64,000 bases of DNA, taken from contig NZ_FXBM01000004.1 of assembly GCF_900177245.1 (NCBI RefSeq), forward strand, positions 62,001 through 126,000. Reading direction: 5' to 3'. Shown one piece after another: positions 7,557 through 55,428 of this stretch. Made by a program: the position numbers and the translations under genes. The stretch comes from Rathayibacter oskolensis (lineage in GTDB: Bacteria; Actinomycetota; Actinomycetes; Actinomycetales; Microbacteriaceae). The notes below the pieces were generated by a model. That model made no database searches. It was not told where the DNA came from and worked only from the letters and a program-made list of their open reading frames with translations. The first letter of the stretch is position 1; each line of letters opens with the position of its first letter.

Positions 7557-10500
7557 GTGCTGCTCAAGCTCTCCTCCCGTGCCCGCATAGCCATGCTCCT
7601 GTTACTGGCGCTCGTTCTGACCGGGTTACCCTCAGCCCCTGCTGCGGCGGCGACGGCGTTCGCCGCTGCGCCGATACCGACGATCACCGGGACGACGACG
7701 GTCGGGGCGACCTTGACGGCGAACAAGGGGACGTGGAGCCCGGTCCCGACGTTCACCTATCAGTGGAAGCGCGGGACGGCGCTGATCAGTGGGGCGACCG
7801 CGTCCACCTATAAGCCCGTCGCCGCTGACGTCGGCGCGACTCTGACCGTCACGGTGACCGGGACCAAGACCGGATACACGACCACGTCGAAGACCTCTGC
7901 TGCGACCGCGACGATCAAGGCTGCTGCGGCGACGGCGTTCACGGCTGCGCCGATACCGACGATCACCGGGACGACGACAGTGGGGGCGACCTTGACGGCG
8001 ACCACGGGAACGTGGAATCCCGTGCCGTCGTTCACGTATCAGTGGAAGCGCGGGACGGCGCTGATCAGTGGGGCGACCGCGTTCACCTATAAGCCCGTCA
8101 CCGCGGATGTCGGCGCGACCCTCACTGTCACGGTGACGGGAACCAAGACCGGATTCACCACGACGTCGAAGACGAGTGCTGCGACCGCAGCGATCAAGGC
8201 GCCGGCGGCGTTCACCGCTGCCCCGACTCCGACGATCACGGGGACGACGACGGTCGGGTCCACCCTGACTGCGAATGCCGGGACGTGGAGCCCGGTCCCG
8301 ACGTTCACGTATCAGTGGAAGCGCGGGACGACGGTGATCAGTGGGGCGACTGCGTCCACTTACAAGCCGGTCACCGCCGATGTCGGCGCGACCGTGACCG
8401 TCACGGTGACCGGGACCAGGACCGGATACACCACCACCTCGAAGACCTCCGCCCCGACTGCGACGATCAAGGCTGTTGCGGCGACGGCGTTCACGGTTGC
8501 GCCGATTCCGACGATCACCGGGGCCGCGACCGTGGGGTCCACGCTGACTGCGAGTACCGGGACGTGGAGCCCGGTCCCGACGTTCACGTATCAGTGGAAG
8601 CGCGGGACGACGGTGATCAGTGGGGCGACCGCGTCCACTTACAAGCCGGTCACCGCCGATGTCGGCGCGACCCTGACCGTCACCGTGACCGGGACCAGGA
8701 CCGGATACACCACCACCTCGAAGACCTCCGTCGCGACCGCGACGATCAAGGCTGCTGCGGCCACGGCGTTCACGGTTGCGCCGATTCCGACGATCACCGG
8801 GGCCGCGACCGTGGGGTCCACGCTGACTGCGAATGCCGGGACGTGGAGCCCGGTCCCGACGTTCACGTATCAGTGGAAGCGCGGGACGACGGTGATCAGT
8901 GGGGCGACCGCGTCCACCTATAAGCCCGTCACCGCTGACGTCGGCGCGACCCTGACCGTCACCGTGACCGGGACCAGGACCGGATACACCACCACCTCGA
9001 AGACCTCCGTCGCGACCGCGACGATCAAGGCTGCTGCGGCCACGGCGTTCACGGTTGCGCCGATTCCGACGATCACCGGGACCGCGACCGTGGGGTCCAC
9101 GCTGACTGCGAATGCCGGGACGTGGAGCCCGGTCCCGACGTTCACGTATCAGTGGAAGCGCGGGACGACGGTGATCAGTGGGGCGACCGCGTCCACCTAT
9201 AAGCCCGTCACCGCTGACGTCGGCGCGACCCTGACCGTCACGGTGACCGGGACCAGGACCGGATACACCACCACCTCGAAGACCTCCGTCGCGACCGCGA
9301 CGATCAAGGCTGCTGCGGCCACGGCGTTCACGGTTGCGCCGATTCCGACGATCACCGGGACCATGACCGTGGGGTCCACGCTGACTGCGAATGCCGGGAC
9401 GTGGAGCCCGGTCCCGACGTTCACGTATCAGTGGAAGCGCGGGACGACGGTGATCAGTGGGGCGACCGCGTCCACCTATAAGCCCGTCACCGCTGACGTC
9501 GGCGCGACCCTGACCGTCACGGTGACCGGGACCAAGACCGGATACACCACCACCACGAAAACCTCCGCACCAACGCCGTCTGTTCAGAGCGCGCAGCTCG
9601 AGTTCACAACGACCCCGACACCGCGAATCGCCGGGCTGGGTCGCATCGGCTCTACTCTCGAGGCGCGAGACGCCACCTCATGGTCTCCCATGCCGACCAT
9701 TTCGTACCAGTGGGAGCGCGATGGAATAGCAATCCCAGGCGCTTCAGCCCCGAGCTATCAGATAGTACTGGCGGACGCAGGTGCCTCGATCACCGTCGCA
9801 GTAACGGGGACATTGCCCGGCTATCGAACGACTACTAAGTCCAGCGAAGGTCTTCGCGCATGGGACTCGACGGAGACCGGAACGTGCGGTCCAGCGAAAG
9901 ACGACGGAAAGCGGGTAATCCGCGTCTCGGAGGATGTCACGCAGAACACGACGTGGTCGACATCCGCAGTCGATGTCGTGCGCTTCTGCCAAACACCAGC
10001 GGGCTACGGTCCGGCCATCTCTGCAGGCACGACGGTGAAGTTCGAGGCCGGCGTAACTGTTGAACTCTATGCCACGTTGGCTGTCATGGGCACGGCCAAC
10101 TTCGCCGGCACGCCGACGTCGCATATCAACCTCAAAACCTCTCCGTACGCAGGGGGCTCTATAAACACGACCCTGCGCGGAGGTACCTTGCTTGCTGATT
10201 ACGTTGATTCCAATAACGTCAGCATCGCTGCCCCGTGTGGGAGTGTAATGGTGAACAATTCCTCCTTCGGCTCGATCAGTGCAAAGGCGGACGGGCTTGT
10301 TCTGTCTAAGGAGCAGGGCTCAGTCTGCGAAGCGTCGCAAAAAGAACTGACGGTCCGTGACTCGCGAATCAACAGTGTAGACATCACCAGTTGGGTCAGC
10401 TCAATCGTTCTCGAGAACAACGACATCGCCAACAACGTCGACATCCTCCACAACAGAGGGGTCGATGCCTGGGCCGCGCAGTCCTCTGGACGCGCCGTTG

Positions 10501-11801
10501 TGACTGACAATGAGATTCACGGCCGAAACGGCTTCAGCTACATGGATGACTGTAAGGTCATGTGCGCGAGTATGCCGCTTTCCCTAGTCGGCAACGAGTT
10601 GACCGAACAGAATGCCAAGTTCCAGGTTCTCTGGGCCAACCTGTCCAATGGGTCGCTCGCCAACAATTCCGGCCCGAATCCTGAGCTCTACGAATTCTGG
10701 GACATAACAGTCTTGGGATCTTTGAATTGGCCGATCGGAAGCATTGACGAGTCGCCGGAACTGATGCGGGTGGCGCCGGAAGCGACTCTGGTTGTGAGAG
10801 CTGGGTACGACTTCGTGGCGCAGAACCTATCAGTGGCGGGTGCGTTCCGGTTCGAGGGCGGTGCGGCGAATAAGGGAGTCTATCGAGGTGAGAACCGGGA
10901 GGGTGCGGCAACCTACGGCTCGATCTCGGTGGGCCCGAGCGCCAAGGTCGACTTCACCAACGTGGAATTCCGAGCCCTCAGGGATATCAGAGTGGAAGGC
11001 GAACTCTCGATCTTGGACTCAACGTTCGTCGAGCCGACTGGAGTTCCGAACGATTACAAATCGTCGATGTACTTCAAGAACGACCCGGCCGTTATTCATC
11101 AGGTCGGTGGAAGTATCTACCTCGACGCAGATTACGTAAGGACCCCGCGCCTACTCACACAATACGAGGGCACCGCTATCATTCGCGGCCACTTCATTGA
11201 GCCGCGGGCCGATATCAACCTCATTCAGACATGTGAATGGGAGGTAGACCAGTGTTTCGTGGATGCGCGCGACGTCGACTGGTCCGACTCTGATGGACCG
11301 TTCCCTGCCGCAGCGAACGCTGATCCTCTTGCGGAACCTCCGACTGCTCGCTTTTGCGGTGCAGGTGTGGTCTGGCCTTGGATCGGCTCGGACGAGAGTG
11401 ACAGCGGTCAATGGATCGGTGGATGCGACGGAGTGGACTACAGCCCCTACGTAGCGATCGAAGAAGCGCGGGATCGGTACGATGCGTCACTTGCCGGTTT
11501 CCGTGCGATGTGTGCAGAAGACGCGACCTATTTCGCCGAAGCATGTACGGTCGTTGAGGACTCGCAACGCTGTTACAACGCTGCAATGGAACTCGCACAA
11601 GAGAGTTCGACGTTTCCCCTCGAGCCCGATGTCGAGGATGTCGCGACAGAGACGGCCGCTGGCGCGGTCAAGGCGCTCGAAACGCTTGATCGCCCGTCGC
11701 TCAGACTGCCGGTCGCCGGGGTGGGCCTCGCGCTGACAGCCCATCAGATCACGTCAACAGTGCTCAACGTCCGCGACGCTTACAGCCAATGCACTCCATA
11801 G
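7557..11801 (+). CDS. large secreted Ig-like repeat protein
   Basis: Predicted 1414 residues, starting at GTG 7557; an internal ATG at 7593 is an alternative start. An N-terminal signal peptide (ARIAMLLLLALVLTGLPSAP, then AAAA) directs export. Seven tandem Ig-like modules follow, each about 93 residues with the consensus PTITGT.TVGSTLTA, YQWKRGT, GATASTYKP, LTVTVTGT; a degenerate eighth ends near 9855. The remaining 640 residues are different: beta-rich, with several cysteines and solenoid-like segments, ending in a short hydrophobic stretch. Base composition drops from about 9590 on, and codons such as ATA and AAT become common, so the gene looks mosaic. No LPxTG motif or cell-wall-binding repeat was recognised. 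Role likely adhesion or surface display; enzymatic function not recognised. Confidence 0.85.
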   Translation: MLLKLSSRARIAMLLLLALVLTGLPSAPAAAATAFAAAPIPTITGTTTVGATLTANKGTWSPVPTFTYQWKRGTALISGATASTYKPVAADVGATLTVTVTGTKTGYTTTSKTSAATATIKAAAATAFTAAPIPTITGTTTVGATLTATTGTWNPVPSFTYQWKRGTALISGATAFTYKPVTADVGATLTVTVTGTKTGFTTTSKTSAATAAIKAPAAFTAAPTPTITGTTTVGSTLTANAGTWSPVPTFTYQWKRGTTVISGATASTYKPVTADVGATVTVTVTGTRTGYTTTSKTSAPTATIKAVAATAFTVAPIPTITGAATVGSTLTASTGTWSPVPTFTYQWKRGTTVISGATASTYKPVTADVGATLTVTVTGTRTGYTTTSKTSVATATIKAAAATAFTVAPIPTITGAATVGSTLTANAGTWSPVPTFTYQWKRGTTVISGATASTYKPVTADVGATLTVTVTGTRTGYTTTSKTSVATATIKAAAATAFTVAPIPTITGTATVGSTLTANAGTWSPVPTFTYQWKRGTTVISGATASTYKPVTADVGATLTVTVTGTRTGYTTTSKTSVATATIKAAAATAFTVAPIPTITGTMTVGSTLTANAGTWSPVPTFTYQWKRGTTVISGATASTYKPVTADVGATLTVTVTGTKTGYTTTTKTSAPTPSVQSAQLEFTTTPTPRIAGLGRIGSTLEARDATSWSPMPTISYQWERDGIAIPGASAPSYQIVLADAGASITVAVTGTLPGYRTTTKSSEGLRAWDSTETGTCGPAKDDGKRVIRVSEDVTQNTTWSTSAVDVVRFCQTPAGYGPAISAGTTVKFEAGVTVELYATLAVMGTANFAGTPTSHINLKTSPYAGGSINTTLRGGTLLADYVDSNNVSIAAPCGSVMVNNSSFGSISAKADGLVLSKEQGSVCEASQKELTVRDSRINSVDITSWVSSIVLENNDIANNVDILHNRGVDAWAAQSSGRAVVTDNEIHGRNGFSYMDDCKVMCASMPLSLVGNELTEQNAKFQVLWANLSNGSLANNSGPNPELYEFWDITVLGSLNWPIGSIDESPELMRVAPEATLVVRAGYDFVAQNLSVAGAFRFEGGAANKGVYRGENREGAATYGSISVGPSAKVDFTNVEFRALRDIRVEGELSILDSTFVEPTGVPNDYKSSMYFKNDPAVIHQVGGSIYLDADYVRTPRLLTQYEGTAIIRGHFIEPRADINLIQTCEWEVDQCFVDARDVDWSDSDGPFPAAANADPLAEPPTARFCGAGVVWPWIGSDESDSGQWIGGCDGVDYSPYVAIEEARDRYDASLAGFRAMCAEDATYFAEACTVVEDSQRCYNAAMELAQESSTFPLEPDVEDVATETAAGAVKALETLDRPSLRLPVAGVGLALTAHQITSTVLNVRDAYSQCTP
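7648..9587 (+). repeat. tandem 279-bp Ig-module repeats
   Basis: Seven in-frame units. Those beginning at about 8472, 8751, 9030 and 9309 are exactly 279 bp apart and almost identical at DNA level. The units starting at about 7648, 7924 and 8200 are more divergent, and the third is shorter. Near-identity of the later units points to recent duplication or gene conversion. Confidence 0.92.
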
Positions 11802-12659: not shown

Positions 12660-14063
12660 TCAGCTGCACGCCGTCAGCGACGCGACCCCCTCCGACAGCG
12701 TGCCCGTGCCGCCGAGCAGCACGACCTTCGTGGCGCCGAGGGTCTCGATGTCGTCGAGGACGGGCTGGGGCACGCAGTCGGGCTTCACGGTGTAGAGCGG
12801 GTTCTTGGTGAAGCCGGCGGCGGCCGCTCCGGAGAGGGCGTCGGGGAAGTTCTCGCCGGTGGCGAGGTAGACCGTCGACGCGGCGGTGAAGGCGGCGCGG
12901 TTGAGCTGGACCGACGTGTCGTAGCGGTCGACGCCTCCGATGCGGGTGGGCTCGAGGCGGAACGAGGTCTCGATGCCGGTGCTGACCGAGAGGGGGTCAC
13001 CGGCGATCGTCAGCTTCTTGACGCCGAGACCCGACACGAGGCTCTTCGTGGTCGCGTCGGCAGCGCTGAGTCCGCCGTTGATCAGGAGGACGGGCGCTCG
13101 GACCGAGCCGGCCGCGGCTGCGGCCGCGAGGGCGTCGGGGAACTTCTCGCCGGTGGCGAGCCAGGCCTGCGAGGAGCCCTTCGGGAAGGCGGCCTCGACG
13201 AGCTTCGCGGCGGTCTCGTAGCGATCGACGCCTCCGATGCGCTGGACCTCACCGGTCTTCGCGTAGGCGGCGAGCTCGGTCGCGAGGCGCTCGCTGACGC
13301 TCAGGTCGGAGCCGACGACGACGATCTTGCTCGGCTTGAGGCGGCGCAGCTCGTCGCGGACCGGCTGCGACATGGAGTCGCGGTCGACCAGCAGCAGCGG
13401 TCCGTTCTGCTTCGCGGCGGCGGGCCCGGCGGCGAGAGCGTCGGGGAAGTTGCCGCCGGTGGCGATGAAGACGACGGGCACGTTGGCCGCGAACGTCGCG
13501 GCCGAGACCTTCGCGGCGGTGTCCTGGCGGTCGACTCCGGCGATGCGGGTGACGGTCACGGGTCCCCCGGGGGTCGGGGTGCTGGTCGGAGTGGGTGTCG
13601 CGGTGGGAGTGGCGGTCGCCGTGGGCGTCGCGGTCGGAGTTGCCGTCGGCGTCGACGTCGCGGTCGGAGTCGGCGTGGGGGTCGATCCGCCACCGCACGA
13701 CTGCGGGGTGACGCGGTAGCGGTACTGCACGTTCGCCGAGCTGTCGGCCCAGACCACGAGGGTGTCGCCCAACTCGACGTCCACCGAGTCGAAGGCGAAC
13801 ACGCCGCCCGAAGCGGGGACGGTCTGCTCCTCGACGGTGGCGTTGTTGACGGCGAGACCGACGACCACGGTCTCGGCCGAGGGGGTCGATGACCCGGTGG
13901 TGCCGGAGACGATCGCGCTGACCGGGCCGTCGTCGTCGCAGGTGACCGCGGTCGAGGCGGTCGGAGCGGCGGCGGCGGCGCTGAGCGCGGGGGTCAGACC
14001 CACGGAGGCGGCGATCAGCGCGGCGGCGACCAGGGCGAGCCGTGAGCGGCGCGGGGCCTTCAC
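12660..14063 (-). CDS. secreted cell-wall-binding repeat 2 family protein
   Basis: Predicted 467 residues, ATG at 14063. A signal peptide ends near ALSAAAAA (residue 33). A beta-sandwich-like N-terminal domain (about 40-130) ends in QSCGGGS. A Pro/Thr-rich linker of about 40 residues follows. Three cell-wall-binding type-2 repeats come next, each with a RIGGVDRY-type opening and ATGENFPDAL-type core (first: RIAGVDRQDTAAK; second: RIGGVDRYETAAK; third: RIGGVDRYDTSVQ). Three such repeats are the usual complement for non-covalent attachment to cell-wall polymer. The protein is likely surface-displayed through the C-terminal repeats, with the N-terminal domain exposed. The gene diverges from the ABC operon. 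Confidence 0.9.
   Translation of the reverse strand: MKAPRRSRLALVAAALIAASVGLTPALSAAAAAPTASTAVTCDDDGPVSAIVSGTTGSSTPSAETVVVGLAVNNATVEEQTVPASGGVFAFDSVDVELGDTLVVWADSSANVQYRYRVTPQSCGGGSTPTPTPTATSTPTATPTATPTATATPTATPTPTSTPTPGGPVTVTRIAGVDRQDTAAKVSAATFAANVPVVFIATGGNFPDALAAGPAAAKQNGPLLLVDRDSMSQPVRDELRRLKPSKIVVVGSDLSVSERLATELAAYAKTGEVQRIGGVDRYETAAKLVEAAFPKGSSQAWLATGEKFPDALAAAAAAGSVRAPVLLINGGLSAADATTKSLVSGLGVKKLTIAGDPLSVSTGIETSFRLEPTRIGGVDRYDTSVQLNRAAFTAASTVYLATGENFPDALSGAAAAGFTKNPLYTVKPDCVPQPVLDDIETLGATKVVLLGGTGTLSEGVASLTACS
13562..13686 (-). repeat. Pro-Thr linker hexanucleotide repeat
   Basis: Degenerate tandem repeats encode a TPTATPTP-type linker in the cell-wall-binding protein. The tract is likely prone to length change by slippage while staying in frame. 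Confidence 0.8.
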
Positions 14064-44001: not shown

Positions 44002-47000
44002 TCAGCGCGCGACGGTCTTGCCCGCGCTCGTCTTCGCCAGCGTCGTGTAGCCCGCCTTCGTGCCGGTCACGGTCACCGTGACGACCTTGCCCGCGTCGGC
44101 GGCCACCGGCTTGTAGGTCGCCGAGGTCGCTCCCGAGATGGCGACGCCGGCGCGCTTCCACTGGTAGTTGAGCGTCACCGGTGACGGCGCCCAGGTGCCG
44201 GGCGTCGCGGTCAGCGTCTGCCCGACCTTGGCCGTGCCGGTGATCGTGGGAGTCGCGCCGGTCAGGGTGCCGCCGGTGACCATGGCGGTGGTGGCGCTGG
44301 TCTTGGTGGCGGGGGAGTAGCCGGGCTTGGTGGAGGTGACGCTCACGGTGAGGGTGGCTCCGGCGTCGGCGGCCTTGAGGACGTAGGTCTTCGAGGTGGC
44401 GCCGGTGATGTAGATCCCGTTGTTCTTCTTCCACTGGTAGGTCAGCGTCGTCCCGGCGTCCCAGGTGCCCGGAGCGGCGGTGAGCGTCGAGCCGACCTTC
44501 GTGGTGCCGGTGATCGTCGGAGTCGGCATCAGCGTCTGCAGGGCGGCCTTCACGGTGACCGCGGCGCTGGTCTTGGCGACGGCGGCGTAGCCGGATTTCG
44601 TACCGGTGACCGTGACGCTGATCGCGGCTCCCGCGTCGGCGGCGACGAGCGTGTAGGTGGAGGCGGTGGCTCCGCTGATCGCGGTGCTGTTGCGCTTCCA
44701 CTGGTAGGCGAGGGTCACCGGAGCAGGAGCCCAGGTGCCGGGGACCGCGGTCAGCTTCTGGCCGACGGTCGCGGTGCCGGTGATCGTGGGCGTGGGGCCG
44801 GTGATGACGGCGCCGTTGGTGACGACCGCGGTCGTGGCGCTGGTCTTGCTGGCGGAGGAGTAGCCGGGCTTGGTGCCGGTGACGGTGACGGTGAGGGTCG
44901 CTCCGGCGTCGGACGCCTTGAGGACGTAGGTCTTCGCGGTGGCGCCGGAGATGTAGATGCCGTTGTTCTTCTTCCACTGGTAGGCGAGGGTCGTGCCCGC
45001 GTCCCACGTGCCGGGGTTCGCGGTGAGCGTCGAGCCGACGGTGGTCGAGCCCGAGATGGTCGGGGTCGGCATCAGGGTCTGCAGACCCGGCGCGACCGAC
45101 ACTCCGGCGCTTGTCCTGGCGAGCGTGGTGTACCCCGACTTCGTGCCGGTGACGGTCACGGTAAGAGTCGTTCCGGAGTCGGCCGCGACCGGCGTGTAGG
45201 TCGCCGCGGTCGCCCCCGAGACGACCGAGCCGTCGCGCTTCCACTGGTAGGCGAACGCCACCGGCTGCGGCGCCCAGGTTCCGGCGTTCGCGGTGAGGGT
45301 CCTGCCGACCTGGGCGGTGCCCGAGATCGTCGGTGTCGAGCCGGTGAGGGTGGTTCCTCCGGTCACGGACGTGGTCGGCGCACTCGTGCGGGTCGTGGTC
45401 GTGTATCCAGGCCGTGTGGCCGTGACGGAGACCGTGAGGGTCGAGCCCGCGTCCGCCTCCTTCACGGCGTAGGTCTTGCCTGTCGCACCTGCGATGGCGG
45501 TCGAGCCGTTCCTCTTCCACTCGTAGCTCAGCGTGGTGCCCGCATCCCACGTCCCCGGAGTCGCCGTCAGCGTGGCCCCGACCGACGCCGTTCCCGAGAC
45601 GACAGGCGTCGGAGTGAGGGTCATGACGCCGGGTCGGACGAGAGCCGGCGCGCTCGTTCTCGTCAGGGGCGAGAGCCCGGGCCGTGATCCGGTGACAGAG
45701 ACGGTCAGATCGGCCCCGAGATCCGCCGCGACGACGGTGTAGGCCGCTCCGGTCGCATTCGGGATCGCCTGCCCGCCCCTCTTCCACTGGTAGGCGAGGT
45801 CGATCGGCTGCGGCGACCAAGCTCCGGGCTCGGCGGTCACGGTGGAGCCGACCTGGGCGACGCCGGTGATGACGGGATCCGAGCCGACGACCGGGCCGTC
45901 CGGTGCCACGACGCGGCCGCTCGTGGTCATCGTCAGCGGAGTCAGTCCCAGGCGCCCGGCCGTGTCGGTGACCGAGATCCGCTTGCCGGCGTCGGCGGCG
46001 GTGAGGGTGTACGAGCTGTTCGTCGCGCCGCTGATCGCGACGCCGTCTCGGGTCCACTGGAAGGCGTGGGACGTCGGAGCCGGAACCCAGCCGGATCCCG
46101 GTTGAGCCGTCAGTCCTCCTCCGACCACGAAGTCCCCCGCGATCGTGGCGGCGACACCCCGCTCGAAGGTCACGGGGATGGTCGTTCCCGAGCTCGTCAC
46201 GACGGCGTCGGGTGAGCCGGACCTCTTCCCCGTCACGGTCACGGTGATCACGTGGCCGACGTCGTCGAGGCTCACCGCGTAGGCGAACTGCTGGGGCGCG
46301 TCGGCGATCGGCACCCCGTCGCGCTTCCAGACGTAGGAGTAGCTGATCCGATCCGGTGACCACGCGGGATCCGCCGACAGGATGTCGTCGACGTACGCCT
46401 TGGCGGGGAGGGTGATCGGCGTCGACGTGATCGGGCCCGCGTCGGGGGGGCTCGCGAAAGCGAGCAGATTCGGAGAACCGTTCGGATCTCCGACCACTCC
46501 CGGCGTCGCGGCACTCACGACTGCGGCGGCGACCGAGGCGGCGTCGGCCGAGGGGTGACTCTCCTGGTAGCGGGCGACGATGCCCGCGACATGCGGAGCG
46601 GCCATCGAGGTCCCGCTCTTGACGTCGAACGACGAAGAGGTCGTCATCGTCGAGGACATGATTCCGGCGCCGGGGGCGAACAGGTCGACGCAGCTCCCGA
46701 AGTTCGAGAAGTTCGCGCGCGCACCCTCGTCGTTCGTGGCAGCAACGGTGAGAGCGGAGGGCTCACGCGCGGGAGACTTCGTGCACGCGTCGGCGTTGTT
46801 GTTCGACGCGGCCACGACGACCGGGATCCCCGCTGCCACCGTGTTGGCGATCGCGGTATCGAAGGTCGGGTCCGGCCGGCCGCTCAGACTGAGGTTGGCC
46901 ACTGCCGGGCCCTGGGGCTTGTTGGCCACGGCCCACTCGAGACCGGCGATGATGTTGCTCGTCGCCCCCATGCCGGCGCAGTCCAGAACCCGGATCGAGA

Positions 47001-47580
47001 CCAGCCGGACGTCCTTCGCCACCCCTGAGACCTCGCCACCGACGGTGCCGGCGACGTGCGTTCCGTGGCCTTGGCAGTCCGACGCATCTGCGTCCCTGCT
47101 GACGAAGTCCCAGCCGCTCACGGCACGACCGCTGAAGTCGACGTGATCGAAGCGCATGCCGGTGTCGATGATGAAGGCCGTCACCCCGACCCCGGTGGTG
47201 TCGTAGCCGTACATCTCATCGACCGGTCCGGTCCGCTGATCGATCCGGTCGAGACCCCACGGGGGGACGTCCTGCACCTCCGTCGCGCTCACGACACCGT
47301 CGGGCGTGACAGCGGTGACGAAAGGGAGAGCGGCGAGTGCGTCCCGCTGTCGGTCGGTGAGGCTCGCAGCGAAGCCGTTGAGCACCCGTTCGAAGTAGTT
47401 CGACACCGCCTGCGCCGGGACACCTGCTCTCTCGACGGCCACACGGGCGGCCGCAGCGGCGTTCGTCTGCACGATGTACCGGCTCGTCGGAGCGGGCGCC
47501 GCCGATGCGACGGGCGCGAGCGCTCCGACGGCGACGGCGACGGTGGTCAGGGTGGCGAGGACGCCACGGTTCATGCGCAC
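44002..47580 (-). CDS. secreted subtilisin-like serine protease with nine Ig-like repeats
   Basis: Predicted 1192 residues. GTG 47580 has GGAG at suitable spacing; ATG 47574 is the alternative. A signal peptide ends near ASAAPA (residue 30). An inhibitor-like propeptide runs to about residue 105. The S8 domain follows with D139 (IIDTGMRFDH), H172 (GHGTHVAGT), oxyanion Asn about 260 (AASNNN) and S325 (SGTSMAAPH). From about residue 380 there are nine Ig-like modules of about 90 residues, the first two divergent, with YQWKR and GATxxTY motifs. It should be an active secreted protease with a long stalk. No LPxTG is seen. A tract is shared with the next gene. Confidence 0.93.
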   Translation of the reverse strand: MRMNRGVLATLTTVAVAVGALAPVASAAPAPTSRYIVQTNAAAAARVAVERAGVPAQAVSNYFERVLNGFAASLTDRQRDALAALPFVTAVTPDGVVSATEVQDVPPWGLDRIDQRTGPVDEMYGYDTTGVGVTAFIIDTGMRFDHVDFSGRAVSGWDFVSRDADASDCQGHGTHVAGTVGGEVSGVAKDVRLVSIRVLDCAGMGATSNIIAGLEWAVANKPQGPAVANLSLSGRPDPTFDTAIANTVAAGIPVVVAASNNNADACTKSPAREPSALTVAATNDEGARANFSNFGSCVDLFAPGAGIMSSTMTTSSSFDVKSGTSMAAPHVAGIVARYQESHPSADAASVAAAVVSAATPGVVGDPNGSPNLLAFASPPDAGPITSTPITLPAKAYVDDILSADPAWSPDRISYSYVWKRDGVPIADAPQQFAYAVSLDDVGHVITVTVTGKRSGSPDAVVTSSGTTIPVTFERGVAATIAGDFVVGGGLTAQPGSGWVPAPTSHAFQWTRDGVAISGATNSSYTLTAADAGKRISVTDTAGRLGLTPLTMTTSGRVVAPDGPVVGSDPVITGVAQVGSTVTAEPGAWSPQPIDLAYQWKRGGQAIPNATGAAYTVVAADLGADLTVSVTGSRPGLSPLTRTSAPALVRPGVMTLTPTPVVSGTASVGATLTATPGTWDAGTTLSYEWKRNGSTAIAGATGKTYAVKEADAGSTLTVSVTATRPGYTTTTRTSAPTTSVTGGTTLTGSTPTISGTAQVGRTLTANAGTWAPQPVAFAYQWKRDGSVVSGATAATYTPVAADSGTTLTVTVTGTKSGYTTLARTSAGVSVAPGLQTLMPTPTISGSTTVGSTLTANPGTWDAGTTLAYQWKKNNGIYISGATAKTYVLKASDAGATLTVTVTGTKPGYSSASKTSATTAVVTNGAVITGPTPTITGTATVGQKLTAVPGTWAPAPVTLAYQWKRNSTAISGATASTYTLVAADAGAAISVTVTGTKSGYAAVAKTSAAVTVKAALQTLMPTPTITGTTKVGSTLTAAPGTWDAGTTLTYQWKKNNGIYITGATSKTYVLKAADAGATLTVSVTSTKPGYSPATKTSATTAMVTGGTLTGATPTITGTAKVGQTLTATPGTWAPSPVTLNYQWKRAGVAISGATSATYKPVAADAGKVVTVTVTGTKAGYTTLAKTSAGKTVAR

Positions 47581-47674: not shown

Positions 47675-50353
47675 TCAGCTCGGCTTGACGGCGGCGCTGG
47701 CCTTGGTCAGCGTCGTGTAGCCGGTCTTCGTGCCGGTGACCTTCACCGTGATGGAGGCGGCCTTGTCGGCGGTGGCGAGCTTGTAGGTGGATGCGGTCGC
47801 GCCGGAGATGGCGGTGGTGCCGCGGTACCACTGGTAGCTCAGGGTCACGGGCGAGGGGGTCCAGGTGCCGGGCTTGGCGGTCAGCGTGGAGCCGACCTTG
47901 GCCGTGCCGAAGATCGTGGGGGTCGCTCCGGTGAGAGTGCCCTTCGCGATCGCGGTCGTGGTGGCGCTGGTCTTCGTGGCGGGGGAGTAGCCGGGCTTGG
48001 TCGAGGTGACCGACACGGTCAGGGTCGCTCCCGCGTCGGCACCGGTGAGGACGTAGGTCTTCGAGGTGGCGCCGGAGATGTACGTGCCGTTGTTCCTCTT
48101 CCACTGGTAGCTCAGCGTGGTGCCGGAGTCCCAGGTGCCGGGGTTCGCCGTCAGAGTCGAGCCGACCTTCAGCGTCCCGCTGATCGTGGGAGTCGGCATG
48201 AGCGTCTGCAATGCCGCCTTCACGGTCGTCGCCGCGCTCGTCTTCGTGACGGCCGTGTAGCCGGTCTTCGAGCCGGTGACGGAGACGGTGATCGCGGCTC
48301 CGGCGTCGGCGGTGACGAGCGTGTAGGTGGAGGCGGTGGCTCCGCTGATCGCCGTCCCGTTGCGCTTCCACTGGTAGGCGAGGGTCACCGGAGCAGGAGC
48401 CCAGGTGCCGGGGACCGCGGTGAGCTTCTGACCGACCGTCGCGGTGCCGGTGATCGTGGGCGTGGGGCCGGTGATGACGGCGCCGTTGGTGACGACCGCG
48501 GTCGTGGCGCTGGTCTTGCTGGCGGAGGAGTAGCCGGGCTTGGTGCCGGTGACGGTGACGGTGAGGGTCGCTCCGGCGTCGGACGCCTTGAGGACGTAGG
48601 TCTTCGCGGTGGCGCCGGAGATGTAGACGCCGCCGTTCTTCTTCCACTGGTAGCTGAGGGTGACGCCGGAGTCCCAGGTGCCGGGGTTCGCGGTGAGCGT
48701 CGAGCCGACGGTGGTCGAGCCCGAGATCGTCGGGGTCGGCATCAGGGTCTGCAGGGGGAGGCCGATGGTGGTGGCGGTGCTGGTGCGGGAGGCGGTCTTG
48801 TAGCCGTACGTCGATCCGGTCACCGTGACGGTGAGGGCGGCGCCGGAGTCGGCCGAAGCGACGGTGTACCTGTTCGAGGTGGCTCCCGGGATCGCGACGC
48901 CTCCTCGCTTCCACTGATAGGCGAGGTCGACACCGGAGGGTCCCCAGTTGCCGGGGTCAGCGGTCAGGGTCTGACCGACGAAGGGAGAGCCGGTGATCGT
49001 CGGCACCGAGGAGGTGAGCGATCCCTCCGTGGCGGTGATGGTGGCGCTGGTGCGGGTCGCCCTGGCGTAGCCGGTCTTCGTTCCGATGACTTGGACGCTG
49101 ATGGCGTTGCCCAGCTCGTACTTGCCGACGACGTACTGCGGCTCGGTCGCTCCGTATATCGGGTATCCGTCGCTCAGCCACTGGTAGCTCAGGGTGACGG
49201 GCTGCGGGCCCCACGTGCCCGGTACCGCAGTGAGGGTGTCGCCGACCGCGCCCGAACCCGAGACCGTCGGGGTTGCGCCGGTCAGATTGCCGACCTTCGC
49301 GAGCTCGAGCGTGAAGGGGCCCGCGCCGAATCCGTAGCTGGACACCTGGAGGAAGTACGTCTTCCCCGCCTGCGCAGCGAACTCCACGTTCGCTCGCGCC
49401 GCGGAGTAGTCACCGTCGATGTCGTAGGACTGCTCACCGCACCCCAGCATCGCCCCGGGGGTCGTTCCGTCGGAGCCGTAGACCGCCAGGTTCGCCTGAA
49501 TCGCGCTCTTGCCCACATCGGCACGGAAGGACGACGTCGTGGTCGGTGTGAACTTGTACCAGAGCGACCCCATGAAGGCGTTGATCCCGCAGCCGGAGTA
49601 GGGGTTGTACCAGTTGAAGTCGACCTCGGCGTTCGACCCGGTCACGGTCGAGGGGAGCGACGAGATCGCGGTCGCGCTCGAGTAGGTCGTGTTCGGGACG
49701 GCAGCGCTCGAGGTCACGGAGAGGCTCGCGGTGGACAGCTCCGGCTCGTTCTCGGAGTAGGCGAGCGCGCTGATCTGGAAGTAGTACGTCTGCCCGGACT
49801 CGGCCTGGAAGTGATTGGTCGACCGGTAGCTGGTCTCGCCGCAGGCGATGCGAGTGGCCTCGGTGACGACGCCGTCCCGGTAGACGCTGGTGAGCGCGTA
49901 CTGACCCGTCAGAGTCCCGCTGAAGCTCAGCGTCTGGCGCTTCGTCGACGTGTACGCGAACCAGATCGAGCTCCTGCCCTCGTTCGGGTACTCGGAGACG
50001 TCCGGGTCGGTGGTGCGGCACCCGGCGAACTCTCCCGGCTCGAGGGTCGCGGCGTCGTAGGGCGCGCTGGTCGTCGAGTAGGGGAGCGACGGGATGACCG
50101 TCGCGTTCGCCCTGAGGTCGTTCGCGGGCGCGACGGCAGCAGCCGACGCTTGACGCGCCGACGTGCTGGGCGCCTCAAGAGTGGCCGGAGCGCCGGTGTG
50201 CGGCGTCCCCGCCTGGACGACCTCGGAGCCGGGGTCGGCTGCGAGGGCGGAGTCGGCCGCGAAGGCGGGGGCGGCGGGCAGGAGGCCGAAGCCGACCGCC
50301 AGGACAAGGACGAGGGCGAGTGCACGCAGATGGGCGCGGCGGTACAGGGGCAT
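47675..50353 (-). CDS. secreted protein with six Ig-like repeats
   Basis: Predicted 892 residues from ATG 50353, with GGAG eight bases upstream. The signal peptide is ALALVLVLAVGFGLLPAAPA ending AFA. The following 300 or so residues form two related beta-rich modules (ANDLRANATVIPSLPYST and TYSSATAISSLPSTVTGS), resembling pre-peptidase C-terminal-type domains. Six Ig-like modules follow with alternating LQTLMPTPTISG and ITGPTPTITG openings. No catalytic domain is visible. It is likely a surface or matrix protein. It shares a 190-bp identical stretch with the neighbouring protease gene. Confidence 0.88.
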   Translation of the reverse strand: MPLYRRAHLRALALVLVLAVGFGLLPAAPAFAADSALAADPGSEVVQAGTPHTGAPATLEAPSTSARQASAAAVAPANDLRANATVIPSLPYSTTSAPYDAATLEPGEFAGCRTTDPDVSEYPNEGRSSIWFAYTSTKRQTLSFSGTLTGQYALTSVYRDGVVTEATRIACGETSYRSTNHFQAESGQTYYFQISALAYSENEPELSTASLSVTSSAAVPNTTYSSATAISSLPSTVTGSNAEVDFNWYNPYSGCGINAFMGSLWYKFTPTTTSSFRADVGKSAIQANLAVYGSDGTTPGAMLGCGEQSYDIDGDYSAARANVEFAAQAGKTYFLQVSSYGFGAGPFTLELAKVGNLTGATPTVSGSGAVGDTLTAVPGTWGPQPVTLSYQWLSDGYPIYGATEPQYVVGKYELGNAISVQVIGTKTGYARATRTSATITATEGSLTSSVPTITGSPFVGQTLTADPGNWGPSGVDLAYQWKRGGVAIPGATSNRYTVASADSGAALTVTVTGSTYGYKTASRTSTATTIGLPLQTLMPTPTISGSTTVGSTLTANPGTWDSGVTLSYQWKKNGGVYISGATAKTYVLKASDAGATLTVTVTGTKPGYSSASKTSATTAVVTNGAVITGPTPTITGTATVGQKLTAVPGTWAPAPVTLAYQWKRNGTAISGATASTYTLVTADAGAAITVSVTGSKTGYTAVTKTSAATTVKAALQTLMPTPTISGTLKVGSTLTANPGTWDSGTTLSYQWKRNNGTYISGATSKTYVLTGADAGATLTVSVTSTKPGYSPATKTSATTTAIAKGTLTGATPTIFGTAKVGSTLTAKPGTWTPSPVTLSYQWYRGTTAISGATASTYKLATADKAASITVKVTGTKTGYTTLTKASAAVKPS

Positions 50354-50650
50354 GACGGGACTCCAGGGTGCGGGCGACGGGTCGGGTGGTGGTGCTGCGC
50401 CTGCAGAGTCCGAGCGCGAGCGGGTCCGCGCTGATCGGGGAAGGCAGCTGATAGTCGCGAGATTCCCAGCAGCCCCATAGGTCCCGTTCGGGGGGTGCGC
50501 GCAGTCGCCGGTCGGTCGAGGAGGCCGCCTCCCGCGCTGTTCCGCGCGATCCAGGGGTGCGGAGGCGTGAATCCGTCGGGGCCGTTCCCGTCGTCGCGGA
50601 GTAGAACTACTAGTCGACACCGGGCCGAGGAGTCCCGCCGCGCGTGTGCC

Positions 50651-51434: not shown

Positions 51435-52259
51435 ATGTCGAAGACGAAGTCGAGCACGCCCTCGCCCGTGCACCGGATCCGCAAGTCGCTGTACGAGGCG
51501 GAGCTGGAGCGCCTGCAGATCGAGCTCGTGACGATGCAGCGGTGGGTCATCGAGACCGGCACCCGGGTCGTCGTCGTCTTCGAGGGCCGCGACGCCGCCG
51601 GGAAGGGCGGCGCGATCAAGCGGATCATGCAGTACCTCAACCCGCGGTCTGCCCGCGTCGTGGCGCTGCCGACGCCCAGCGAGCGCGAGAAGGGCCAGTG
51701 GTACTTCCAGCGCTACCTCGAGCGGCTGCCGACGGCGGGCGAGATCGTGCTGATGGACCGCTCCTGGTACAACCGCGCCGGAGTGGAGCGCGTGATGGGG
51801 TACTGCACCCCTGAGCAGTACCGCCTGTTCCTGCGGCAGGCCCCCGCCGTCGAGCGGATGCTCGTCGAGGACGGCATCATCCTCCTCAAGTACTGGTTCT
51901 CGGTGTCCGACGACGTGCAGGAGGAGCGCTTCCGCTCGCGCCTGGAGGATCCGATGCGGCGCTGGAAGCTCTCGCCCACCGACCTGCAGTCGATCACCCG
52001 CTGGGAGGACTACTCGCGGGCGAAGGACGAGATGTTCGAGGCGACCGACCACGCCGACGCGCCCTGGTGGACGATCGCGAGCGACGACAAGCGCTCGTCG
52101 CGGCTCAACGCGATCAGCCACCTCCTCTCGCAGATCCCCTACGAGCACCGCGATCCGGAGCCGATCGACATCCCGCCCCGGCCGACCTCCGACACCTACG
52201 AGAGGCCGGCCCGCGACCGGTTCCGGTCGGTGCCCGACCACGCGAAGACGCTGCAGTAG
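51435..52259 (+). CDS. ppk2: polyphosphate kinase 2
   Basis: Predicted 274 residues from ATG 51435. Walker A is GRDAAGKGG at 51-59, Walker B is VLMDRSWYNR, and the lid region has KYWFSVSDDVQEERFRSRL and WTIASDDKRSSRLN. These match the class I PPK2 family, which uses polyphosphate to phosphorylate ADP or GDP. Cytosolic. Length is typical. Its stop faces the convergent LPxTG-type gene, 33 bases away. Confidence 0.94.
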   Translation: MSKTKSSTPSPVHRIRKSLYEAELERLQIELVTMQRWVIETGTRVVVVFEGRDAAGKGGAIKRIMQYLNPRSARVVALPTPSEREKGQWYFQRYLERLPTAGEIVLMDRSWYNRAGVERVMGYCTPEQYRLFLRQAPAVERMLVEDGIILLKYWFSVSDDVQEERFRSRLEDPMRRWKLSPTDLQSITRWEDYSRAKDEMFEATDHADAPWWTIASDDKRSSRLNAISHLLSQIPYEHRDPEPIDIPPRPTSDTYERPARDRFRSVPDHAKTLQ

Positions 52260-52292
52260 CGGCACGCGCGTCCGGCCGGTGCCGGTCCGACC

Positions 52293-53798
52293 TCACCGGG
52301 TGTAGGCGTAGCTGAGCGTCGTCCCGCCCGGGTCGTAGGACGTCCGGACCGTGCCCGCTGTCGCGCACGTCACGTGCGGGATTCCGGGGGTGGTGGCGGT
52401 GTTGTAGGGGCCGTAGCAGCCTGACGTCTCGACCGTGAGCGAGGCGAAGCCGTCGGAGCGGCTCACGTTCACCAGGTACTCATCGACCATGACGTCGCCG
52501 ACGTAGAAGGCGAACGAGTAGTGCAGCCGGGCGGTCTCGAAGTTGCAGGAGAAGCTCGAGACCGGCTCCCAGGCGACGCTGCCCGTGATGACCGTGGACG
52601 CTCCGTCGCCCAGGGGGCGCCAGGACCGCTTGTCGTCGACGGGGCTGGTCGCCTCGATGCAGTTGTTGTAGGAGTCCCAGATCCGTCGGGTGACCAGCGC
52701 CGATCCCGGGGGCGCGTTGGTCACGACGAAGCGCGTCTTGGCGACGTCACCCGAGCCGACTCCGCCGGCCGGGATCGTGGGCAGGCTCGTCGGGACGGCG
52801 GTGGGCAGGCTCGGCGGCACGACGACCGGCGACCGGGGCCCGTCGAAGAACACGAACGACTGGCGGGCGTCGTCGTCGAGCCAGGTGCGGACCTGCCCCG
52901 CGTACTCGCACGCCACGTGCGGGAGGTCGGGGTCGGTCGTGGAGTTGTAGGGCCCCGAGCACACCGACACTGTGGAGTTCAGTCCGACGGCCGAGGTGGC
53001 GGTGTCCCCCACGGTCACCTCGTACTCGTCGACCTTCACGCCGCCGACCAGGAACTCGAACAGGAAGTGCAGTCGAGCGGCTTCGAAGAAGCAGGAGCCG
53101 GAGTTGATCTTCTCGAACGTCAGGCTGCCCTCGATGGTCGAGAAGTCCTCGGCCGAGCGGGGGAACCACTTGCGCGGCTCGCTGACGGGGTCGGTCGCCT
53201 GCACGCAGTTGTTGTAGCCGTCCCAGATCCGGGAGGTGACGACCCTCGCTCCGGGAGGTGCGTCGCGCACGACGAAGGGCACCCGCGACACCGAGGTGCC
53301 GGGGCCGGTCGTCGGAACGTCCGTGGGGAGAGCAGTGGGAACCGTCGTCGGGATGTCGGTCGGGACGGCTGTGGGGACACCCGTCGGGGTGTCCGTCGGG
53401 ACGGCTGTGGGGACAGTCGTGGGGACGGTCGTCGGAGCCGAGGTGGGGCTGGGCTGACCCGTCGGGACAGCCGAGGGAGCGGTGGTCGGGGTCGGCTCTG
53501 CAGTCGCCGGCGCGGTCGCCGTGGCCGTCGGAGTCGACGTGTGCGGGCTCATGGGGGGAGCGGCCCCGTCGCTCGGGGAGCAGCTGTCCGATGCTCGGGC
53601 GGGAGTCGGTGCACCGCCCAGACCAGCGACGAGTCCCGACGCGAGAAGGACAGCGAGGAGAGCCGCGGCGGTGGCGCCGCGGTGTCCGCGCCGTCGGAGC
53701 ACGACCACGATCGCGACTCCGATCACGAGCAGCGCGAAGCCGCCGAGGGCGAGCGGGAGGGCGTCGCTTCCCGTGGAGGGGAGACAGTCGGTGAACAC
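52293..53798 (-). CDS. secreted two-domain protein with N-terminal LPxTG-TM-Arg segment
   Basis: Predicted 501 residues from GTG 53798, with GGAGG seven bases upstream, so this start is well supported. Residues 6-10 are LPSTG, followed by a hydrophobic helix (14-34) and RRRGHR: the exact order of a sortase sorting signal, but at the N-terminus. A second hydrophobic stretch (44-62) ends in a signal-peptidase-like site ARA-S at 69-70. A Pro/Thr/Val-rich linker (about 83-165) precedes two related domains of about 140 residues, each with SRIWDGYNNC or RRIWDSYNNC, CxxE/F, and SGPYN/YGPYN motifs and four or so cysteines. Function unknown. The C-terminus has no anchor. Confidence 0.85.
   Translation of the reverse strand: MFTDCLPSTGSDALPLALGGFALLVIGVAIVVVLRRRGHRGATAAALLAVLLASGLVAGLGGAPTPARASDSCSPSDGAAPPMSPHTSTPTATATAPATAEPTPTTAPSAVPTGQPSPTSAPTTVPTTVPTAVPTDTPTGVPTAVPTDIPTTVPTALPTDVPTTGPGTSVSRVPFVVRDAPPGARVVTSRIWDGYNNCVQATDPVSEPRKWFPRSAEDFSTIEGSLTFEKINSGSCFFEAARLHFLFEFLVGGVKVDEYEVTVGDTATSAVGLNSTVSVCSGPYNSTTDPDLPHVACEYAGQVRTWLDDDARQSFVFFDGPRSPVVVPPSLPTAVPTSLPTIPAGGVGSGDVAKTRFVVTNAPPGSALVTRRIWDSYNNCIEATSPVDDKRSWRPLGDGASTVITGSVAWEPVSSFSCNFETARLHYSFAFYVGDVMVDEYLVNVSRSDGFASLTVETSGCYGPYNTATTPGIPHVTCATAGTVRTSYDPGGTTLSYAYTR
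53303..53548 (-). repeat. Val-Pro-Thr linker repeat
   Basis: Degenerate tandem repeats of a 12-base unit encode VPTD/VPTA/VPTT in the LPxTG-type protein. Likely variable in length between strains. Confidence 0.75.
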
Positions 53799-54027
53799 GG
53801 CAGAGCCTCCGGGGGGACGAGGGGAAGGGCTCCCTCACTATGGAGCTCACGGCTCATGCACAGGGAGAAGTGCTGGCCCCCGTTCTGGCCGCTCGTCGGG
53901 CGGCAGCGGCACCCGACCCTGACCGCCGAGCCCCACCGCTCTCGGACGACGACGAGGTGCCTCGTCCAGACTGAGGGGGAGACAGGCGGGCCCTGTGCCG
54001 CACAGCTCGACCGACGAAGGAGAGACC

Positions 54028-55428
54028 ATGACGGATCAGGCCGGAATCCCCGAGGCGACCTCGCTCGAGGGCATGCAGCGGACGATCGCGATCCTCGGGG
54101 CCGGCGGCGACCTCACCGAGAGACTGCTCATCCCGGGACTCGGCCGGGTGGCGGAGCTCGCCCGCGACTCCGAGCTCACTCTGATCGGAGCCGCTCGGAC
54201 ACCGCAGAGCGACGACGAATGGCAGGCGCTCGTCCGCCGCAGCCTCGAGAGCGCCGGCATCTCCGCGCACACCGTCGAGTCCCTGGCCTCGCGCGCCCGC
54301 TTCCTGGCGACGGACGCCTCCGACCCCGAGCAGCTGAAGGCGCTGCTCGACGCGTGCCCCTCCGCGCCGGTGCTGTACGTGGCGCTCCCTCCGGCGATGG
54401 GGCACGCGATCGCCGACTCGCTCGCGACGATCGACCTGCCGGACGATCTCGTCGTCGCCATCGAGAAGCCCTTCGGAGAGGGTCTCGACGACGCCGTCGC
54501 CCTGAACGCCGAGCTCGCGGCGGTCATCCCCGAGAGCCGTCTCTGGCGCGTCGACCACTTCCTCGGCAACGCCACCGTGATGGGGATGCTCGGGCTGCGG
54601 TTCGGGAACCGGCTGATCGAGACGAGCTGGAACGCCGAGCACATCGAGAAGGTCGAGATCGTCTACGACGAGTCACTCGGGATCGAGGGGAGGGCCGCCT
54701 TCTACGACTCGACCGGCGCGCTCCGCGACATGCTGCAGAGCCACCTGCTGATGGTGCTGGCGCTGACCACGATGGAGCGCCCCGACGAGATCTCCCCGCA
54801 GGACGTCCACAGGAGCATGGCCGAGGTGCTCGGAGCCGTCCGCCTCTGGCGGGACGACCCCGGCACCGCCCGCCGCGCCCGCTACACGGAGGGGCGCGTC
54901 GACGGCCGCCTCTTCCCCTCCTACGTCGACGAGCCCGACGTCGACCCCGCCGCGGGCACCGAGACGCTCGCCCAGGTGCTGCTGCAGATCGACTCGCCGC
55001 GCTGGGCCGGGGTCCCCTTCGTCCTGCGCTCCGGGAAGGGCATCGGCGACCCCCGCACCGAGGTCGCCGTGCACTTCCGGCCGTCCTCGCCTCCCCGGGG
55101 CCTGCGCAGGGCCGCGGACGAGGCGGGGACAGTCCTCCGCATGTCGCTCAAGGGCGGGGACGTTCACCTCGACCTGTTCGTCAACTCCGCCGACGACCTG
55201 GGCGACCTCGACCGGGTGGCCCTCGAGGCGCAGCCGGGTACGGCGACGCTCGACCCCTACTCGCAGGTGCTCGCGGGGATCCTCCAGGGCGACACCCTCC
55301 TCTCGGTACCGGGCGACGTCGCCGAGCAGTGCTGGCGCGTCCTCAGCCCCGTCCTGTCGCGCTGGGCGAGCGGAGACACGCCGCTCGAGGAGTACGCGGC
55401 GGGGAGCGCCGGGCCCGAGGGCTGGTGA
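54028..55428 (+). CDS. glucose-6-phosphate dehydrogenase family protein (atypical)
   Basis: Predicted 466 residues from ATG 54028, behind AAGGAGAG. It has the dehydrogenase layout: coenzyme motif ILGAGGDLTERLL (usual GASGDL), conserved EKPFGEGL, and the active-site segment RVDHFLGNATV. The last is RIDHYLGKE in canonical enzymes: His is kept, Tyr is Phe, and the phosphate-binding Lys is Asn. It may use a different substrate or be a low-activity paralogue. There is no opcA gene after it, unlike actinobacterial housekeeping zwf. The next gene is a regulator 90 bases downstream. Confidence 0.82.
   Translation: MTDQAGIPEATSLEGMQRTIAILGAGGDLTERLLIPGLGRVAELARDSELTLIGAARTPQSDDEWQALVRRSLESAGISAHTVESLASRARFLATDASDPEQLKALLDACPSAPVLYVALPPAMGHAIADSLATIDLPDDLVVAIEKPFGEGLDDAVALNAELAAVIPESRLWRVDHFLGNATVMGMLGLRFGNRLIETSWNAEHIEKVEIVYDESLGIEGRAAFYDSTGALRDMLQSHLLMVLALTTMERPDEISPQDVHRSMAEVLGAVRLWRDDPGTARRARYTEGRVDGRLFPSYVDEPDVDPAAGTETLAQVLLQIDSPRWAGVPFVLRSGKGIGDPRTEVAVHFRPSSPPRGLRRAADEAGTVLRMSLKGGDVHLDLFVNSADDLGDLDRVALEAQPGTATLDPYSQVLAGILQGDTLLSVPGDVAEQCWRVLSPVLSRWASGDTPLEEYAAGSAGPEGW

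Follow-up and report, generated by a model that had tools for sequence, protein, structure and literature searches.

Sortase sorting signals are annotated through matches to models, and their position at the C-terminus of a protein is assumed. Whether comparable modules had been described at an N-terminus was a question that the initial annotation of the locus studied here could not check. They have been: the M26 metalloproteases of streptococci and Gemella (IgA1 protease, ZmpB, ZmpC and ZmpD) carry an LPXTG motif near the N-terminus, and the experimental paper behind the processing of this motif is reportedly that of Bender and Weiser from 2006. In the passages of the literature that bear on these enzymes, the motif lies within a domain containing transmembrane (TM) segments and is followed by a stalk or repeat region and the ectodomain (PMC2225412). 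The motif is recognized by sortase A, the enzyme being cleaved 56 residues downstream of it (PMC9637739), and sortase A attaches the mature enzymes covalently to the surface (PMC7695701). ZmpB has instead been counted among the C-terminal LPXTG proteins in the corresponding passage of another source (PMC7644249).

Among the matches listed in a search of open-licence PMC papers, we found no case of an N-terminal LPXTG module in actinobacteria or Microbacteriaceae. Some papers do use the wording ‘N-terminal LPXTG’, and these were set aside because the proteins concerned have ordinary anchors or the term is used loosely. A paper on actinobacterial signals was also set aside, its relevant passages being concerned with C-terminal or ordinary pilin signals.

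A candidate sorting signal at the front of a protein

The locus lies in a 64,000-nucleotide stretch of Rathayibacter oskolensis DNA, referred to here as the window. The gene encodes a 501-aa protein from a GTG start; its coordinates in the initial annotation are correct, and we add that it lies on the minus strand, running from 53798 to 52293 (Table 1). GC content by codon position is 0.62/0.60/0.90. The N-terminus reads MFTDC-LPSTG-(SDALP)-TM1-RRRGHR-TM2-APTPARA/SDSC, where the slash marks a predicted cleavage site. This looks like the rare arrangement described above in a stripped-down variant, with a sorting signal at the front of the protein joined directly to an export signal.

Table 1. 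Features of the 501-aa gene and its product, in window coordinates.
Feature	Position	Strand	Basis
Whole gene, 501 aa, GTG start	52293..53798	-	Sequence; GC by codon position
Shine-Dalgarno GGAGG, 7 nt before GTG	53806..53810	-	Duplex energy
Cys5, directly before LPSTG	53784..53786	-	Sequence
LPSTG motif, residues 6-10	53769..53783	-	TIGR01167, residues 6-37
TM1, residues 16-34, predicted N-out/C-in	53697..53753	-	Hydropathy, flanking charges
Alternative internal GTG, codon 31	53706..53708	-	-6.1 kcal/mol
RRRGHR basic stop, residues 35-40, putatively also n-region of next signal peptide	53679..53696	-	Sequence; double role inferred
TM2 / signal-peptide h-region, residues 42-60	53619..53675	-	Hydropathy
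Signal-peptidase-like site A67-R68-A69/S70, 60 residues after T9/G10	53592..53600	-	Sequence; predicted cleavage
Cys73, near start of mature ectodomain	53580..53582	-	Sequence
P/T-rich stalk, residues 86-167	53298..53543	-	Composition; weak PF04886
Repeat 1, residues 168-320, four Cys	52839..53297	-	Repeat alignment; low-confidence model
P-rich linker between repeats, residues 321-349	52752..52838	-	Composition
Repeat 2, residues 350-501, four Cys	52296..52751	-	45% identity to repeat 1

The elements that the initial annotation had picked out here, an LPSTG motif followed by a hydrophobic helix and an Arg-rich stop, and then a second hydrophobic segment with a signal-peptidase-like site, are all present at the residues given in Table 1. 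The first segment reaches a 19-residue Kyte-Doolittle maximum of 2.95, and the second reaches 2.18 on the same scale. The NCBI LPXTG-anchor model TIGR01167 matches residues 6-37 of the 501 at 17.8 bits with the whole protein as query and 22.0 bits with the N-terminal 78 aa, both above its curated cut-off of 15.9. The match thus combines the motif, the hydrophobic helix, the basic tail and a sufficient score; what it lacks is the position at the extreme C-terminus usual in the class. The Pfam model Gram_pos_anchor (PF00746) stays below threshold, at 15.5 bits against a gathering cut-off of 20, and is unlisted at E≤1 in the Pfam scan of the whole protein. Near the C-terminus of the protein there is no hydrophobic segment of sorting-signal grade.

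In its motif, spacing, helix, Arg tail and membrane direction, the N-terminal module resembles an ordinary C-terminal LPXTG signal as modelled by TIGR01167 and PF00746, but it occupies residues 6-37 of 501 and is followed by a second hydrophobic segment for export. The resemblance to the M26 metalloproteases lies in the overall layout: an LPXTG near the N-terminus, hydrophobic segments after it, and then a stalk, repeats and an ectodomain. M26 cleavage is placed 56 residues after the motif; the putative ARA/S site here lies 60 residues after T9/G10. Unlike the M26 enzymes, the protein has no signal peptide ahead of LPSTG, just five residues preceding the motif, and it contains neither an M26 nor a G5 domain (Pfam, E≤1). 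Its repeat ectodomain belongs to no known protease family, and its host is a high-GC organism, an actinobacterium to judge by GC content and the types of gene present. At most, then, the protein works like an M26 N-terminal module; the missing upstream signal peptide and the missing M26 and G5 domains place it outside the family.

Both hydrophobic segments (window 53571-53798, minus strand) also give sub-threshold matches to NF033207 (midcut-by-XrtH) and NF058595 (lipo-invert). Going by its name, midcut-by-XrtH would be another sorting signal situated away from the C-terminus, and from the same name we take it to be of the exosortase type. Its match spans both segments at 15.8 bits against a cut-off of 45, which leaves the protein outside that class.

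Predicted topology and a putative sortase substrate

By the positive-inside rule, the basic flank of a TM helix faces the cytoplasm. Within the N-terminal tail (residues 1-13), two residues are acidic and none is basic, while four Arg and one His lie between the two helices. Since these charges follow the rule, TM1 is predicted to run out-to-in and TM2 in-to-out. The short acidic tail would be passed outward and the Arg cluster would stay cytoplasmic, with TM2 bringing the chain back outside. Because TM1 would run inward with the Arg cluster on the cytoplasmic side, LPSTG would be presented outside and its Arg tail inside, just where and how an ordinary C-terminal sorting signal presents them. 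The Arg tail could then double as the n-region of the signal peptide that ends in ARA/S, and the two cysteine-containing repeats would be held outside by TM2 and the P/T stalk, with their N-terminal side as the point of attachment. A sortase would be expected to recognize LPSTG and to cut at the predicted T9/G10 bond, presumably exposing Gly10, and signal peptidase may cut at A69/S70.

Our main reading is that a complete sortase sorting signal is merged with a complete signal peptide or anchor, translated from the first GTG, making the protein a putative sortase substrate. We give this a probability of about 0.5. Both the N-out helix and a sortase-like module, as suggested in the initial annotation, are well supported at the level of sequence by the TIGR01167 score, the charges and translation from the first GTG; the outward orientation of the N-terminus and the display of the ectodomain follow as predictions from the same features. 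The M26 precedent of an N-terminal LPXTG recognized by sortase A counts for the main reading, and so does the position of the stalk, as wall-spanning stalks usually adjoin the sorting signal and the P/T stalk here adjoins the N-terminal module. The PF00746 score below cut-off counts against it. A further weak point is that a cut at T9/G10 would attach a peptide of just nine residues to the wall, and it is hard to see what this would serve unless the ectodomain stays bound to that peptide.

If the main reading is true, an N-terminal signal that lacks a signal peptide, outside the streptococcal M26 proteases, would show the module at work as a portable membrane unit, widening the range of sortase substrates and allowing proteins to be displayed with free C-termini.

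No sortase was found in the window, either by tblastn with one class C sortase (best E 0.44) or when 16 other proteins of the window were scanned with Pfam, and this too counts against the main reading.

Alternative readings of the N-terminal module

The same architecture could have arisen if a C-terminal sorting signal had been fused in frame to the signal peptide of a secreted protein and survived as a relic or recycled module. TM1 would then be half of a two-helix anchor, with LPSTG kept by chance or recency and sortase uninvolved. The Arg cluster shared by the two segments is what such a fusion would give, the nine-residue leaving peptide lacks an obvious function, and this protein is the sole member found. 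Against a relic, nothing in the motif, its spacing or the tail has been lost and the curated TIGR01167 cut-off is exceeded, and codons 2-30 have kept the kind of usage seen elsewhere among the window genes. We regard a relic as possible, if doubtful.

It is also conceivable that an LPxTG arose by chance before an ordinary N-out transmembrane hairpin. The motif appeared in 67/200000 random 13-residue draws at window composition, about 3 per 10000 such tails, and in 431/200000 shuffles of residues 2-14. It is thus rare per protein, yet such a tail could turn up occasionally in a proteome rich in membrane proteins. In this case, however, the distance from the motif to TM1, the TM1 length and the RRR directly after it also fit a sorting signal, and the strict pattern of LPxTG, TM and basic residues, with a single instance in the six window frames, occurred in 0 of 60 windows simulated with a first-order Markov model. 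We consider a chance origin of the motif improbable.

Translation start and gene boundaries

The GGAGG-supported GTG start named in the initial annotation is present, with the GTG at 53798-53796. The duplex energy of its ribosome site with the anti-Shine-Dalgarno sequence is -9.5 kcal/mol, a value equalled in 3.7% of 3000 random positions. Upstream, an in-frame stop lies 13 codons away with no start codon between. A downstream start, raised in the initial annotation as a way in which the arrangement could fail, does exist at codon 31 (GTG31), where a GGAG eight bases upstream gives -6.1 kcal/mol and 17.8% of random positions are as good. Were this the true start, the product would be an ordinary secreted protein with a textbook-like signal peptide (VVVLRRRGHRG, a hydrophobic stretch, then APTPARA/S), and the upstream LPSTG would be untranslated or confined to a second isoform.

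The better ribosome site belongs to the first GTG, and the codons ahead of GTG31 are more telling still. With the codon usage of eleven further genes of the window as reference, codons 2-30 have a log-likelihood of +17.4 bits in frame, versus -22.7 and -33.5 bits in the other forward frames and -1.8, -3.8 and -35.0 bits on the opposite strand; the 29 in-frame codons upstream of the first GTG, three stops included, score -56.4 bits. Codons 2-30 thus look coding in the frame of the first GTG alone. An untranslated stretch would also not be expected to score above the cut-off of an LPXTG model. With the better ribosome site and the coding-like codons on its side, the first GTG is most likely the translation start, and GTG31 as the sole true start has a slim chance; a second isoform from GTG31 beside the main product is conceivable.

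The idea that a sequencing error joined two frames, also raised in the initial annotation, is unlikely because the gap to a divergent glucose-6-phosphate dehydrogenase gene is only about 200 nt and the window holds no second stretch of LPXTG plus TM. The dehydrogenase gene and, on the other flank, a convergent PPK2-family gene were assigned by Pfam. Nothing resembling a promoter turned up when 52200-54100 was scanned for such sites.

Ectodomain and cysteine layout

Beyond the N-terminal module, residues 86-167 form a stalk in which P (24%) and T (33%) together make up 57% of the residues. Two repeats of about 150 residues follow (168-320 and 350-501), 45% identical to one another. A Pfam scan of the whole protein at E≤1 returned only a weak, sub-threshold PT repeat (PF04886). 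An AlphaFold model of the repeat, built from a two-sequence input, contains strands only, at low confidence (mean pLDDT 49.6), and a fold search of the PDB gave no match at E≤0.001. A profile match to 6xi3 (E 0.00048) was rejected as homology, being the sum of four weak stretches of which none is significant singly.

The protein has ten cysteines. Each repeat contains four, at equivalent places in both, and the only ones outside the repeats are C5 and C73. This layout is suggestive of a disulfide tether between C5 and C73, a speculative idea that we extend to a split, disulfide-latched wall anchor. C5 would lie outside just before LPSTG, and C73, also outside, would be the fourth residue of the ectodomain if the chain is cut before S70. 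Sortase would attach the N-terminal peptide, up to T9, to the wall; the ectodomain beginning at S70 would be released by signal peptidase, and the membrane hairpin G10-A69 would be discarded. The C5-C73 bond could then hold the ectodomain on the peptidoglycan by its N-terminal side, with the C-terminus free. Such a latch is one possible answer to the nine-residue problem, a relic membrane hairpin being another, and we consider the latch a long shot. It does make the retention of N-terminal LPXTG proteins on the cell testable, since the cysteine pair can be reduced or mutated.

Rarity of the N-terminal position

To place the arrangement in context, TIGR01167 matches were surveyed across about 20.4 Mb of actinobacterial plasmid sequence (20 records, most of them replicons of Streptomyces, Embleya or the Arthrobacter type), at E≤10 for 8 records and E≤1 for the other 12 (8 + 4). 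A Nonomuraea record that was too large and six sub-cut-off matches without a locus were left out. The survey listed 69 matches, of which the 63 with loci were examined. L[PA]x[TS]G stands near the match start in 35/63, and the 28/63 without the motif were not counted. Among the 35 motif-bearing matches, 33 lie within 20 residues of a stop codon, two are internal and none is clearly N-terminal. This counts against the main reading, which therefore gains no supporting actinobacterial case. Microbacteriaceae contributed three small records of 27, 164 and 567 kb, yielding 0, 0 and 1 matches, the single match lacking the motif, and no chromosome; the survey thus shows the rarity of the N-terminal position in general rather than its absence from this lineage.

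The two internal matches (L060 and L061) are near-identical 129-codon frames on two Streptomyces plasmids, in which LPKSG at codon 65 is followed by a hydrophobic segment but no Arg tail. The motif would be N-terminal if an ATG seven codons ahead were used, but the ribosome site is better at an ATG 36 codons ahead, and the sequence leading up to the motif appears to be coding. Their motif is most likely internal, with no clear sorting signal. Three Paenarthrobacter/Arthrobacter plasmids (L094, L095 and L096; one conjugative and two mobilizable by typing) encode a class C sortase together with SpaA-type pilins.

Homologue searches and neighbouring proteins

Across genome, plasmid and viral collections, we found no relative of the protein beyond low-complexity or insignificant matches, which weighs against the main reading. 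Searching the genome contigs with the whole protein returned four loci, all in Chloroflexota and essentially matches to the P/T stalk alone. The plasmids gave no match for the whole protein and four weak ones for repeat 1 (E 0.7-4); the N-terminal 78 aa found no match there either, a result for which the BLAST low-complexity filter may have blocked the query. Short DNA matches on plasmids were numerous (226 records at E≤10), and the one examined, on Curtobacterium pTCL, is not a sorting signal. In the viral contigs, neither the whole protein, the N-terminus nor the repeat alignment found anything.

A degenerate DNA pattern of Shine-Dalgarno, LPxTG and Arg recovered 25 viral stretches. In 24/25, no helix-grade hydrophobic segment follows the motif (17-residue mean ≤1.38 where measurable), and these were discarded. 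The remaining one, L085, was rejected as C-terminal despite being a real sorting signal: at 4012-4131 of this viral-collection contig, a protein ends in a standard C-terminal LPLTG signal.

Elsewhere in the window, three large proteins rich in Ig-like repeats are encoded at 7557-11801 (plus strand), 44002-47580 (minus) and 47675-50620 (minus), one of which also has subtilase (S8) and I9 inhibitor domains. None of the three combines an LPXTG with a hydrophobic helix and a basic tail. A further protein (12660-14063, minus strand) has three cell-wall-binding CWB2 stretches, a non-sortase mode of wall attachment within the same window.
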